NCBI GenBank assembly: GCA_019054805.1
Contig: JAHQIY010000026.1
Location: forward strand, 806,001-870,000
DNA: 64,000 nt
Origin: Brachionus manjavacas
Lineage: Eukaryota; Rotifera; Eurotatoria; Ploima; Brachionidae
Direction: 5' to 3'
The notes beneath the pieces are model-generated. The model was not told where the DNA came from. It saw nothing but the letters and a program-made list of their open reading frames with translations, and ran no database searches. A program made the translations under genes and the position numbers. Every line of letters starts with the position of its first letter. Within the stretch, counting starts at the first letter, position 1. This document shows, piece by piece, positions 50,146 through 56,779 of this stretch.

Positions 50146-50225
50146 TGGCAGCGGTGGGATTCGAACCCACGCCTGTTACGACTGGTGCCTTAAACCAGCG
50201 CCTTAGACCACTCGGCCACGCTACC
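50146..50225 (-). tRNA. tRNA-Leu(AAG), copy 1
   Basis: An 80-bp gene reading GGTAGCGTGGCCGAGTGG at its 5' end, with acceptor pairing GGTAGCG/CGCTGCC and discriminator A. The anticodon arm is CTGGT-TTAAGGC-ACCAG, giving anticodon AAG. The long class II variable arm (TCGTAACAGGC) and the leucine-type D arm fit tRNA-Leu. Internal Pol III promoters: box A TGGCCGAGTGG and box B GGTTCGAATCC. A T6 terminator follows CAAA on the minus strand. No intron. Confidence 0.98.
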
Positions 50226-50654
50226 TTGCTATAATCGTAATTTTTTTTCTATTAATGTTTAAATTTTCATTTCAATTGAAATTTAAACGTTAACATTTTC
50301 AGATCTTAAATAAATTTTCACTATTTTATGATTTTTTTAAATTTTCAAAAAATTCAATCAGACCTTTAATTAAAAAATGAAAAGAAATAATTTATTTTCA
50401 TTAAATGTTGAGTCATAAAATGAAATTCGTCAATTAATTAAATTTTTATTTCTATTTAAACCATTCTAGATAATGCAGATAAGAAAAATTAAGAATCAAC
50501 ATAAAAGATTCATAAATCAAAAAAAGAATTAAATAAAATCAAAATATTTTAGGTCAAATTGGTTAATTCATATTTTATATTTTCCTTGGAAACAAATCAT
50601 TTAAATTTATTAATTATTTAAAAAAACAAATTTTTTTATCAACATAACTAACGA

Positions 50655-50734
50655 GGTAGCGTGGCCGAGTGGTCTAAGGCGCTGGTTTAAGGCACCAGTC
50701 GTAACAGGCGTGGGTTCGAATCCCACCGCTGCCA
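50655..50734 (+). tRNA. tRNA-Leu(AAG), copy 2
   Basis: Identical over all 80 bp to copy 1, opposite strand, head-to-head with it across 429 bp. The 3' flank AAATTTTTTC supplies the Pol III terminator. The 5' flank ends in GAGGTAG where the other copies have AAGGTAG. Confidence 0.98.
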
Positions 50735-51244
50735 AATTTTTTCTTTTAAAACATACAATGTCTCATTTATTCAACTTCACTACTGTCTATCAACCTAATT
50801 AAACATTTTTCTGCATTCCGATCGAAATTTTCGAATACAAAATCATAAAAAGAATCGTAATTAATTAAGAGAAAAGTTTTCATTGAGAAATATCCAGATT
50901 TTAAAAATGGATTAAGAAAAATTTTTTTTCTTAGACAAAATAATAAAGGAATAAATTCAATTAAAACGAAATAGAACAATTACTAAAAACTTTAGTTGAA
51001 AGTTATCATTTTCATCAATTAATTTAAAATTTTAATAAAAAAATAAATGAAAATTTTTTTCTACTCTATTGTAAAATTAATTTTCCAAAGTTTAATAACG
51101 AAGTGATTGTGAAAAAATATTAAATTTTGCCATTGTTATTTTTAAGTAATTAAAAATTATAATGATTATAGAAGAAAAAAAAACTTAAAATAAAATACCT
51201 AATAGATAGATCAATTATTTTCTCCATTATATAGGAAAAAAATT

Positions 51245-51324
51245 TGGCAGCGGTGGGATTCGAACCCACGCCTGTTACGACTGGTGCCTTAAACCAGCGC
51301 CTTAGACCACTCGGCCACGCTACC
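51245..51324 (-). tRNA. tRNA-Leu(AAG), copy 3
   Basis: Identical to copy 1 and tail-to-tail with copy 2. A T7 terminator is present in the minus-strand 3' flank. Confidence 0.98.
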
Positions 51325-51713
51325 TTGTTAAATATCCGGACTGGTTTTTCAATTTGAAAAAAAAATAATCAAAAGATTCCATTTTTCAATTTCTATTTTT
51401 TTTAGTAACTTTGAACCAGATATGTACTTAAGTCAGGAAAAAAAGCCATGAATTTATTTTATTCCCATAATATAGTTAAGCAAAATATTAAAAAACAATT
51501 TCAAAATTTTCAAAAGTTAAATCAAAACATATCACAACTTTTTCAATTAAAAAACAACTTCATTTTCTTGAGAAATTCACTAATCAATAGATTATCTCGA
51601 AAATAAAAATATTCTTTAGAATCCTAGTTTAAAATTGGCTATTCCAATATTATTTGTCTAAAATACAAAATAATTTTATGTTTAATCAAAAATTGAAAAT
51701 TATTTAACAGGAA

Positions 51714-51793
51714 GGTAGCGTGGCCGAGTGGTCTAAGGCGCTGGTTTAAGGCACCAGTCGTAACAGGCGTGGGTTCGAATCCCACCGCTGCCA
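51714..51793 (+). tRNA. tRNA-Leu(AAG), copy 4
   Basis: Identical to copy 1. Its 5' flank (about 51640-51713) is homologous, inverted, to that of copy 5: both contain a TTATTTGTCT-like word, AAAAATTG and ACAGGAAGGTAG. A TTTTTT terminator follows. Confidence 0.98.
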
Positions 51794-51885
51794 AATATTT
51801 TTTAATAAACCTAAAATTATTTTAAAGATTAGAAAATTTTTCCACTGACAAAAATATTTTTTTTCCAAGCAAAAAATAAAAAATT

Positions 51886-51965
51886 TGGCAGCGGTGGGAT
51901 TCGAACCCACGCCTGTTACGACTGGTGCCTTAAACCAGCGCCTTAGACCACTCGGCCACGCTACC
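51886..51965 (-). tRNA. tRNA-Leu(AAG), copy 5
   Basis: Identical to copy 1. It faces copy 4 tail-to-tail with only 92 bp between them and is the inverted duplicate of that copy, including about 75 bp of upstream DNA. Confidence 0.98.
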
Positions 51966-52187
51966 TTCCTGTAAAATAACTTCCAATTTTTAATTAAACA
52001 AAAAAATATTCTGTATTTAAGACAATAAGTTTTTGGCTACTAAATACAAAGCTTAAACTTACAGCAAAAGAGAATTGAATCTTTTGAATTTTATAAATTA
52101 TTCATATTTTATTCACTATTATGAAGTAACATAGTTGAAAATTTTCAAAATTTCAAAATTTGGTCTTGAAAGGATAAAAAGCTTAAA

Positions 52188-52561
52188 ATGAAATTGACAA
52201 TTTTGTTTTTTGCAATCGTGGGTTTTTTTTTAAGCCCAATTGTATCGTTTCCAATTAAAAAGGTTTTTTATTTATAATCTAAATTTAGAATTATTGATTA
52301 ATATTTCAAAGGAGCATCTGATAAAAAAAAGGCAATATGTGAAACCATCCATAGATGGAATATGGCTAGCTGATGACAGCATTTATGATAAGATATTTAT
52401 GCTCAGAGTTAAAAGTAAAATATTTAAATTAAAATTAAAATTTTAATCAAATAACTTTAGTTAAACTAACATTGTATTTTAAATTAATTAATTGAAAAAT
52501 TTTTTTAATAGAAAAAGATAAAAGATCTCGATCAAGATTAGCAAGAAAACGATTTAAATGA
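52188..52561 (+). CDS. Putative secreted peptide precursor A (75 aa, three exons)
   Basis: Exons 52188-52262, 52312-52414 and 52512-52561 join in phase by GT-AG introns of 49 and 97 bp. Residues 1-20 form a clear signal peptide (MKLTILFFAIVGFFLSPIVS). A basic site KKR (30-32) precedes QYVKPSIDGIWLADDSIYDK. The C-terminus is strikingly basic (KKKDKRSRSRLARKRFK). The layout, signal peptide then basic cleavage site then short peptide, is that of a neuropeptide or peptide-hormone precursor. The motif KRQY-V-KP-S-IDG-I-WLA recurs in the gene at 53063-53463, which supports both models. I do not recognise the family. If exon 2 is read through instead of spliced, it ends after KSKIFKLKLKF. Confidence 0.7.
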
Positions 52562-52699
52562 GTTAAATGAAGCAGTCACTTATATGTTTGTTTTACCACT
52601 GGTACTATGCAGAAATTTTAGTTGTTTTAATTTTTAGATTTTATAATATTTTAAAAATAAAATTTAATTAAAAAAAAAATAAAATTTAAAAAAAAAATT

Positions 52700-52779
52700 T
52701 GGCAGCGGTGGGATTCGAACCCACGCCTGTTACGACTGGTGCCTTAAACCAGCGCCTTAGACCACTCGGCCACGCTACC
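52700..52779 (-). tRNA. tRNA-Leu(AAG), copy 6
   Basis: Identical to copy 1. It sits between the two convergent peptide precursor genes. A T-run in the minus-strand 3' flank serves as terminator. Confidence 0.98.
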
Positions 52780-53062
52780 TTACTCTACTTTTACTCTAAA
52801 CTCATTTTTTAAAAACTCAGATTTTTCTTTTTCAAATCAAAAGAATCTTTTTTTGCACTCGTTTTATTAAATTTTTTTTGTTCAATAATGACAACTTTAT
52901 TGATTAATTTTGAAGAAAATGGTTAATTAAATGGTAAATAATTTTACAAATGAAGGTATCAAAAAGTGTTTTTAAAAAACGTGTTTACAAACAAAAGTAG
53001 AAAAGATTAAATACTTGTAATTAAATAAACGAAAATTGAAGATTGCTGTGCCTGACATAAAA

Positions 53063-53463
53063 TTAATTTGGTTTAGGCTGAGAACTAGAACAACTATAAT
53101 TGATAATATTGCATAAAGTGCCTTTAATCCGGTCGAATAAGTTTATCAAAGAAATGGATAAGCTTGTGACTGATATCTCAGGCTTGGGTGAAGTAACTAA
53201 CTGATCAATCGATTGTGTTGTGGTCCTCATTCTCATTTGATTGATTAGATAAGATCGTTCGTTTGCCAGCCAACTTCCGTCAATATTAGGTTTAATATAT
53301 TGCCGCTTAACTCTGGATTGCCTATCACATGAAACCTGTGTTTTTTTTTAGTTTAATTATCAGAATTAGCTTTTAGCAAAAAAATTTAAAAATTTACATT
53401 TAAAATCATCAAGGCCATCATCCATAGCAATAAGATTGCCTGGAATTTTTTCAACAGTCCCAT
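53063..53463 (-). CDS. Putative secreted peptide precursor B (112 aa, two exons)
   Basis: Exons 53398-53463 and 53063-53335 join in phase across a 62-bp intron. Residues 1 to about 24 are a hydrophobic signal peptide (LLKKFQAILLLWMMALMILN). VKR (31-33) is followed by QYIKPNIDGSWLANERSYLI. The tail (about residues 60-112) is longer than in paralogue A and contains two Cys (CNIINYSC) besides one near the signal peptide. Precursors A and B share 10 of 15 residues from QY to the acidic pair after WLA. In both, an intron falls 7-9 codons before the mature motif, so they are paralogues. Secretion and cleavage after KR are inferred from the sequence. Confidence 0.75.
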
Positions 53464-55457
53464 TTTGAGCGACACTGCTTGTCAAATTATTTGAAAATAA
53501 TTTAAAATTTTTAAACCAATTGTAAATTCAAAAACACAAAGATATCTGAATGAATTTGAATTTTTTATTGTTCAAAATTTCAAAATGAATGCATAGAGAA
53601 TAAAATGCAACTTTCTTCGAGAGATTTAAATTTTGACTTTAACTTATTGAGCCTTAAAAACACGTGAATGCGTTGTTTTAAAATATTATTAGCTTCAGAA
53701 AAAGGAAAAATGTAGTTCGATAAAGCTTTGATCTAAAGATCTCATTTTAAGTTTTTTTTTTCATCAAACAAGCGTTATGGATAATCTCTCTAAAACTGGT
53801 TTCACTCATTTTCAACGAAACGATGCTTGAGAGTTAATCCATTTACTTGGCTTTATTTACAATAAAATTTTGGTTTGTAATTCTAAAATTAGAGATTTGT
53901 AAAAAGCTTTAGTTTAACTATTATATGAAAATCTCATGTTGTTTTACAAATAAAACAGCTTTTAAAATAAAATTTTTACTTCAATTAAATGTCGATGTCT
54001 AAATGGGAGATAAAAACCAAAAGATTTTAGCCAAAAAAATTTGTTACTCAATAGTAAAAATATTTTTCAAATAAAGTATTTTGTACCCAATTACCCAAGA
54101 TTTTTATTTTAATTTCAATTTTTTTTTCAAATTGATTCACCTTTGACCATAAAATTAAAATTCTGAACTCTAAATTAAGTGAACAAAAAGTTTTGATTAA
54201 AATTTTGAATTTTTTAGGCTCTGAATTTTAGCCCCGTTTTGAATTATTGTGAATATTTATTAATAAAATGTTTAGCTAAATAACTTTATCCTATAATCAA
54301 AAATTAAAATACGATTCCTTGAATTTTATTTTGAAACAAATAAACTTAAATAATTGAGATAAATTGAGCCTTTACCTAATTTAGGGGACCTAAGCTTTTT
54401 TAGTAATATCAGGCAAATTGAATTTTAAAAATTTTAAATTGATATTAATTATTACCAATTTTTTGAATCAAATATCGGATTTTAGAAATTTAAAAAAATT
54501 AAAATGTTGAAAATAATTCACAATAATTTACTGAATTTTAATTTTTTTATTTTTTTATACAATTGTAGCAATTTTACTTAAAATTAGGCAAAAATATTAG
54601 TTTAAATCATCACTTCATGTGAAAGTACTGATAGCGTCAATGCTGATATTCAAGTTTCCGAGAAAATTAAAATCAGAACTTATCAAAAGATAGATACAAA
54701 AATTTTGTCTCTTATTCTCTAATTTAAATTGCTCCGAATGAAGAGTTTAAAAAATACTGTAACATACATATCTTTTTTTTATTTAAGGTTGTGAACTATT
54801 CTTTAATCCTTGGATAAAACCATTTAGTTTTTAAAACTGTTTTCAACTTACAAAATCTCTATAGATTTAATGTATTTTTAATGATTTAATTTAGATTTAA
54901 TGATTTAATGTATTTTTTGGCGTAGATTATTTCAACATCGTTGAAAAATAAAAGTTTGACTTTGGATAATTATTTTTTTACAGAAGTTTCAGCATAAGAC
55001 TCAGAATATCTGAATAAACGCTTTTATGTATTTTAAATTAGCATTCTTTCCCAAAAAGAAAATGTGTAATTTTATAAGATGATTAAGTGTTAATTTCCGT
55101 GATATTTTAATTTATTTAAACAATTTTATCAAATTTTTCAAAACTTTTTTTTTTTAAATCTAATATATATTTCTTTACTAGAATCTAATATACAATTTTT
55201 GAATAGCTATACCCAAATCTTAATAAAACAGAACATATATTTATGACTTATTTATTTTATAAACCCCAAATATTGAATAAAATGGGATAATTTTTTTTAC
55301 ATCAATTTCTTTAGAATTACACCAATATAAAAAAAAAATTGTTTTTTTAATATTCTGGCCTCTATAAAGAAATATAGTAAGAAAGATAAAAAATCAACAA
55401 AAATAATATTTTTTCCAATTGTGTTAATTTTATTGAAATAAAAAGAGTAAAAAACAA
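53464..55457. other. Intergenic, about 2 kb, between peptide gene B and tRNA copy 7
   Basis: AT-rich sequence with no convincing gene or repeat. It probably holds the promoter of precursor B at its left end. Confidence 0.5.
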
Positions 55458-55537
55458 GGTAGCGTGGCCGAGTGGTCTAAGGCGCTGGTTTAAGGCACCA
55501 GTCGTAACAGGCGTGGGTTCGAATCCCACCGCTGCCA
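55458..55537 (+). tRNA. tRNA-Leu(AAG), copy 7
   Basis: Identical to copy 1 although 2.7 kb from copy 6. Its T6 terminator lies against the stop codon of the convergent coiled-coil gene, which begins 6 bp beyond the tRNA end. Confidence 0.98.
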
Positions 55538-55543
55538 AATTTT

Positions 55544-56779
55544 TTACCTTAATTTTAATCGTCTCATTCGCAGCTGCACACTTAACCACCAATTCGATAT
55601 TAATTTACTTGCTTTAATATAATTTTCCTCTTCACTTTTTTCCTCTCTGTAATTTAAAACAATATTCAACTTGTAATCATAATCATCTTTTAAATTTATT
55701 ATTTTTTCTTTTTGTAAATCGTATTGAGATTTTATTTTATCTAATTTGATCTGAACTTTTTCAATCGAAGAGTTATAGCAGTCCTCTAATTTATTAAATT
55801 TATTTTCAAATGACAAAATCTCTTTATTCAAAGCAACCATCATTAAATCATGTGCCTGATTTTCAATTTGAATTGAGGAGTTTATGCTTTCAATTGATTT
55901 TTCTATTCTTTTTAAATCACCTTTGTTTACCATTTGAATTTGTAAAAAATTGTTTTTCTTCCACTTTTTTAAATAATTTGTTAATATTTTGTTTTGAAAC
56001 AATAATCTGGATTTGTTGGCCACTAAATTCCTCTTTGATAATTTCATATTATTTAACTTATATCTGCCCTGATTTTTAGTTGAATTTATTTTGGATTTTA
56101 AAAATCTCACATTTTTTGAATTGTTCCTCAAATCATTTACTATTTTTGTTGTGATAGTACTTTGGAGTTTAAAAATAACTAAATTATTATAAAAAATCTC
56201 GTACGAACCTTGATTTGAAATTTCTGTTTTGAGTTCGTCTAAAAGTTTTGTCAAAATAATAAGGTCTAAATAGCTTTTTTGCTCTAAATTGATGATAAAA
56301 GAATAGTCATTAAATAAATCCATTGATTTCAAAAGCAAAATAGTTGAGTTTCCAAAGCGGATCTTTTTACCATTTTCATCTTGTATTTCAATTGAATCCA
56401 AGGGGATATTAATTGGAAATTTGATTAATGTCTTTCCTACTAAAAGGTCAGCATCAATGTCAGCCTGGACGCTTTTCCATAATTGTCTTTTTTTATAAAA
56501 ACTAAATAGAGGAAAATAATTTTCTTCGAAATCATCATTTTTTTCTCTGTTTATAATTAGATTTTTATGAAGATAAAACTTGTATTTTTTAATTTTGTCA
56601 AAGAAAAAATTATCTGAAATATCAGTTTTGGACGACGATTTTTCTAGTTCATGAACCCAACTTTCAATTTGCCAAAGATTCGAATAATTTTTTTCAAATA
56701 TTAGCTTTATCAAATCCAACTGTTCGATGATCAGTTCAATAACGGACGAGTATTCTATCAAAGAACTGGAGTATAGCAT
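55544..56779 (-). CDS. Coiled-coil protein with IQ-like C-terminus (DRC9/IQCG-like)
   Basis: A 411-aa intronless ORF from the ATG at 56779. Residues about 280-390 are coiled coil (LKRIEKSIESINSSIQIENQ, EILSFENKFNKLEDC, KVQIKLDKIKSQYDLQKEKI). The C-terminus SKLISNWWLSVQLRMRRLK resembles the IQ helix that ends human IQCG/DRC9 (IKLQAWWRGTMIRRE), a subunit of the axonemal nexin-dynein regulatory complex. DRC10/IQCD has a similar plan and is the alternative. The rest is too diverged to judge by eye. The stop at 55544-55546 lies 6 bp from tRNA copy 7. The last codons contain AAG/GTAAAA, a possible splice donor, so the gene may continue past the tRNA; otherwise its 3' UTR must cross the tRNA to an AATAAA near 55430. 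Confidence 0.5.
   Translation of the reverse strand: MLYSSSLIEYSSVIELIIEQLDLIKLIFEKNYSNLWQIESWVHELEKSSSKTDISDNFFFDKIKKYKFYLHKNLIINREKNDDFEENYFPLFSFYKKRQLWKSVQADIDADLLVGKTLIKFPINIPLDSIEIQDENGKKIRFGNSTILLLKSMDLFNDYSFIINLEQKSYLDLIILTKLLDELKTEISNQGSYEIFYNNLVIFKLQSTITTKIVNDLRNNSKNVRFLKSKINSTKNQGRYKLNNMKLSKRNLVANKSRLLFQNKILTNYLKKWKKNNFLQIQMVNKGDLKRIEKSIESINSSIQIENQAHDLMMVALNKEILSFENKFNKLEDCYNSSIEKVQIKLDKIKSQYDLQKEKIINLKDDYDYKLNIVLNYREEKSEEENYIKASKLISNWWLSVQLRMRRLKLR

Follow-up and report, generated by a model that had tools for sequence, protein, structure and literature searches.

A pair of putative secreted-peptide precursor genes in the rotifer Brachionus manjavacas

The closest described systems to the locus reported here are the peptide precursors of other rotifers and, more broadly, of animals at large. 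According to the available portion of PMC10730642, an intronless gene of Brachionus plicatilis encodes an APGWamide/AKH precursor that carries APGWamide three times and AKH once. Among the literature matches listed, this is the sole work devoted to a rotifer neuropeptide precursor, and the accessible part of a molluscan survey (PMC6425005) adds some rotifer families, reporting FCAP-related and FMRFamide/RYamide precursors. The APGWamide/AKH precursor is, like the pair of genes described below, a proposed neuropeptide precursor from the same rotifer group, and the available text of PMC10730642 sets it apart from that pair by description only. The FCAP-related peptides, again compared by description in the accessible part of PMC6425005, are 11 residues long, and each of their precursors contains eight or nine of them, versus the single copy of the core found in each of our genes.

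Here we describe two small genes, A and B, in a 64,000-nucleotide stretch of the B. manjavacas assembly GCA_019054805.1 (contig JAHQIY010000026.1, positions 806,001 to 870,000 of the forward strand; hereafter the window, whose own numbering is used throughout). Like the single-copy neuropeptide and peptide-hormone precursors of animals, both combine a signal-like N terminus, a basic site before a conserved stretch, a fast-evolving remainder and an N-terminal Gln. They differ from those precursors in carrying neither an amidation signal nor a recognised family motif, and B also has no second dibasic site. The pattern of a conserved peptide within a divergent precursor is seen here between the two paralogues, and judged from their sequences the genes are best filed as a candidate new family of peptide precursors of this known kind.

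Two genes with a shared core

Gene A (52188-52561, plus strand; three exons, 75 aa) and gene B (53463-53063, minus strand; two exons, 112 aa) lie tail to tail with 501 bases between them (Table 1), and our analysis reproduced the coordinates and splice models of the initial annotation. In each gene a signal-like exon 1 is followed by a phase-0 first intron and by an exon 2 that opens with a short run of residues (7 in A, 11 in B) ending in KR, with the core directly next; the proposed junction between KR and a conserved Gln is present at the core start of both. For A there is also a two-exon alternative, in which intron 2 is retained and translation runs to a stop at 52444-52446, yielding 69 aa. 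The initial annotation had stated that neither gene is visible as a single long open reading frame. The core of A does fall within an unspliced 68-aa ORF at 52240-52446 (TTG start); that ORF lacks the signal-like exon.

Table 1. Proposed exons and introns of genes A and B (window positions).
Feature	Positions	Strand	Remarks
Gene A exon 1, signal-peptide-like, MKLTILFFAIVGFFLSPIVSFPIKK	52188..52262	+	Maximum 12-residue hydropathy 2.7; GC 0.28
Gene A intron 1, GT..AG, 49 nt, phase 0, weak donor GTTTTT	52263..52311	+	GC 0.12
Gene A exon 2, EHLIKKRQYVKPSIDGIWLADDSIYDKIFMLRVK, core Q codon at 52333	52312..52414	+	GC 0.33
Gene A putative intron 2, 97 nt, GTAAAA..AATAG	52415..52511	+	GC 0.093
Gene A putative exon 3, very basic C terminus and stop	52512..52561	+	GC 0.26 vs 0.09 and 0.16 either side
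Gene B exon 1, signal-peptide-like, MGLLKKFQAILLLWMMALMILN	53398..53463	-	Maximum 12-residue hydropathy 2.9
Gene B intron, GTAAAT..ACACAG, 62 nt, phase 0	53336..53397	-	GC 0.18
Gene B exon 2, VSCDRQSRVKRQYIKPNIDGSWLANERS... to stop, 79 residues after KR	53063..53335	-	Self match in genome E 3.5e-18, to A 0.0023

The consensus of the two cores is KRQY[V/I]KP[S/N]IDG[I/S]WLA. Identity between KRQYVKPSIDGIWLA and KRQYIKPNIDGSWLA, previously put at 10 of 15 positions, is 12 of 15 by our count, and 10 of 13 after the KR. In an ungapped alignment the flanking codons specify the same residue at none of the eight positions before the core and at one of the nine after it; past the core, the aligned identities are a Tyr at a distance of 5 residues and a Met at a distance of 10, and aligning the whole precursors with gaps brings in further scattered identities outside the core. 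BLASTP of one precursor against the other returned 13 identities in 20 residues (E 4e-09). When the two gene regions were compared in six frames without gaps, the best BLOSUM62 score was 78, a value reached by none of 500 dinucleotide shuffles, which scored 33.2 +/- 4.0 with a maximum of 61. At 7 of the 12 identical core residues the codons differ, implying a protein kept constant as the underlying DNA changed. Differences within the core codons fall on 9 of 15 third positions, compared with 5 of 30 first and second positions (p = 0.005, one-sided Fisher test). By these figures the duplication looks old, and purifying selection has kept the core protein sequence. The proposal that A and B are paralogues with a constrained core was thus borne out by the shuffles, the 12 of 15 identity and the third-position excess, and we regard it as very probable that they are real coding paralogues.

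The surroundings of the pair are repetitive. Seven tRNA-Leu(AAG) genes in both orientations surround A and B (window 50146-55537), and these copies are pairwise 88 to 100% alike over 90 to 129 aligned bases; one of them lies between A and B, at 52700-52779. An imperfect palindrome of 372 bp (51654-52025; 85% identity), with a tRNA-Leu gene in each arm, stands just upstream of A. A local inverted duplication may explain the tail-to-tail order of A and B. Near B, an ORF on the minus strand at 55544-56779 (411 aa) had no Pfam match at E 0.01.

Searches of the genome and of known families

The 114-Mb assembly (114.2 Mb) was searched for further copies. An exact degenerate pattern of the core found A and B only, and in tblastn searches with each core region at E values up to 10, A and B were the only loci recovered among the best candidates scored (two of two for each query), their cross-matches having E values of 0.0023 and 0.0049 and lying about 1 kb apart. 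When up to three mismatches were allowed, the pattern gave 158 matches, versus 158 for the reversed control. About 100 of these places were listed, and those other than A and B carried 2 or 3 mismatches each; of the 28 beyond A and B that were assigned to loci, 11 were translated, and these took in every listed place with 2 mismatches (9 in all). None of the 11 translated places looked by eye like a relative, and one of them resembles what we take to be an RRM protein of the TDP-43 type.

The family had initially been reported as unrecognised, and Pfam, PDB and full-text searches likewise found none. Against 24736 Pfam models, B had no match at E 0.1 and A had one unrelated, sub-threshold match (E 0.088) to a plectrovirus transmembrane model; PDB sequence searches gave two matches (best E 0.12), two (best E 0.098) and one (E 1.9), all judged to be chance. 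In full-text literature searches, which cover main text, the strings KPSIDG and KPNIDG had a sole match, which concerns an unrelated human phospholipase, and six IDGxWL strings had no match. A few short motif strings were also looked for in the available text of two surveys, the spiralian PMC8557429 and the molluscan PMC6425005, and nothing of the core turned up there. The available text of both surveys names the PKYMDT motif; PKYMDT/whitnin, a proposed proctolin orthologue, was rejected as a relative, the motif being absent from both precursors. CRF/DH44 and gastrin/CCK were considered from likeness judged by eye, found no support in any search and were dropped. The resemblance of these families to the core is superficial (SID.. 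or G.WL....Y), and their C termini and amidation are absent from A and B.

Several other features of the same assembly came to light alongside these searches. The mate-recognition gene mmr-b, known from the Brachionus plicatilis complex with a repeat length of 261 bp (available text of PMC3495898), lies at 1530-2294 of locus L064 (G000:C7 near 5027191), where a 261-bp tandem repeat of 2.9 copies follows the site of primer 2MRPs2. This primer has one exact match in the genome and two with one mismatch, the latter within about 100 kb of mmr-b on the same contig; the reversed pattern has none. Primer site and repeat show the genome to be that of a rotifer of the B. plicatilis complex. The available text of PMC3495898 also records RNAi knock-down of mmr-b in B. 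manjavacas. Contig C4 carries a Gsx homeodomain that contains the two primer motifs used in a study of B. manjavacas (available text of PMC13161344); a Gsx primer had one match in the genome, with 1 mismatch, and a degenerate primer for Cdx had none. An SSU gene was located with a pattern and confirmed, and a spliced-leader pattern of bdelloids had no match at up to 2 mismatches. Contig C21 (1,221,242 bp) looks bacterial where sampled, at loci L005 and L061: the listed ORFs reach 4.3 kb in L005 and 10 kb in L061, and GC is 31% in L061. It encodes CyoB and an RquA-like rhodoquinone methyltransferase just below their NCBIfam cut-offs, and valS and mnmA above theirs. The CyoB shares at most 58% identity with the best 80 of its 216 relatives, and C21 is possibly a divergent bacterial associate sequenced along with the rotifer.

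Predicted processing and the nature of the products

For A and B alike we infer, from the DNA, expression, splicing, secretion, cleavage, N-terminal cyclisation and action on a receptor. The product of exon 1 would target the chain to the ER and then be removed, a protease of the furin or prohormone-convertase type would cut after KR, and the Gln so exposed would cyclise to pyroglutamate. The released peptide would start pQY[V/I]KP[S/N]IDG[I/S]WLA and act extracellularly, a receptor being its most likely target; its candidate mature forms, each with an N-terminal pyroglutamate, are QYVKPSIDGIWLADDSIYDK and QYIKPNIDGSWLANER, or longer. Secretion of both products and their cutting at KR we consider probable.

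How the peptide would end is less uniform between the two genes. KR precedes the core in both, and a basic site follows it only in the three-exon model of A, where a second basic cluster beyond the core, KKKDKR, would limit the peptide to 26 residues, QYVKPSIDGIWLADDSIYDKIFMLRV; the two-exon form of A has no downstream dibasic site. Gene B has no dibasic site after the core, so its product would have to be cut at a single basic residue, or the mature chain could run to as many as 79 residues. A Gly followed by a basic residue, the amidation signal, was found at none of the possible peptide ends after the core in either precursor.

The reading we prefer, at about even odds, is that A and B, as anciently duplicated precursors of one secreted peptide type, release an extracellular signalling peptide. 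Counted against this are the neutral codon usage, the weak donor of A, the missing dibasic site in B, the lack of amidation, the single core copy and the lack of a family match. With no later dibasic site in B, amidation signals missing from both genes and no backing from codon usage, the products could be small secreted proteins of some other kind. The main rival explanation is accordingly that A and B encode small non-signalling secreted proteins (such as those of epithelium, cuticle, digestion or defence), in which cutting at KR would remove a short propeptide, the remainder would be the mature protein and the core would be structural or would bind something. The two cysteines near the C terminus of B and the strongly basic tail of A would both suit such proteins, as would the missing dibasic site in B and the absence of amidation signals. 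However, identity between the paralogues ends with the core, bar one Tyr and one Met, and a short active peptide fits this better than a folded domain does. We think this explanation unlikely, if the most serious of those considered.

Strength of the gene models and outlook

A second explanation concerns the models themselves. The pair of cores could be a conserved piece within some longer coding exon or another gene model, with the signal-peptide exons misassigned. The weak donor of intron 1 of A and the neutral codon usage lean that way. No codon-usage support for the exons was found: with training on 21 ORFs (0.02-0.38 per codon), exon 2 of B scored -1.4 over 90 codons, a value equalled or exceeded by 91% of 2000 random open stretches, and the other exons of A and B fell mid-range in their nulls. 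Neighbouring regions served solely for statistics on codons and splice sites.

AT-rich DNA yields many hydrophobic stretches, which also favours misassignment. Signal-like stretches were weighed against their frequency at random open places. A signal-peptide-like exon within splicing reach was found at 4 of 3646 such places, and other draws gave 9 of 5593 and, for low-GC places, 17 of 3448. Loosening the hydropathy limit to 2.0 raised these counts to 36 of 5593 and 33 of 3448 (low-GC), and a limit of 1.5 was passed by 115 of 5593 and 49 of 3448 (low-GC). The limits were chosen after the genes had been seen, the draws overlap, and A and B lie inside the sampled window. At the limit that fits both genes, only 0.1 to 0.5% of random places qualify, and both genes place their exon before an intron of the same phase, which argues against misassignment. 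By hydropathy and by this rarity, each gene does have the signal-like exon proposed for it.

Base composition also speaks against misassigned exons, as the steps in GC follow the proposed exon borders: GC is 26 to 36% in exons, 9 to 18% in proposed introns and 16 to 24% in the flanks. The proportion of window stretches of equal length with GC as low was 0.6% for intron 2 of A, 7.9% for intron 1 of A and 21% for the intron of B, so that intron 2 of A alone is unusually AT-rich and the other two are ordinary. Taken together with the signal-exon test, we consider misassignment improbable.

That the pair are decayed remnants, or alike by chance and without function, is very improbable. In favour of this reading, the locus has inverted duplications and repeated tRNA genes, codon usage is neutral, and the B open frame, taken by itself, is ordinary: its 94 codons are attained in 26 of 500 shuffles when 53000-53520 is shuffled, and in 48 of 500 for 52800-53764. 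Against it, none of the 500 shuffles matched the similarity between A and B, their differences are biased to synonymous sites, and one would not expect 12 of 15 residues to survive in a duplicate that had drifted neutrally to this degree at third positions.

This rotifer is known to use chemical cues in mating. If A and B do encode signalling peptides, they could represent a family confined to the rotifer lineage and without counterpart in other animals, with pyroglutamate-capped, non-amidated products of the form pQYxKPxIDGxWLA..., perhaps serving as matched hormones or as water-borne signals; this further step we offer as speculation and think rather doubtful. Short spliced precursors such as A and B are easily missed by gene finders. 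Brachionus is a laboratory animal for the study of ageing, sex induction and dormancy, and the defined 13-residue core offers a probe for rotifer genomes, existing RNA-seq data, peptidomics and receptor screens in Brachionus.
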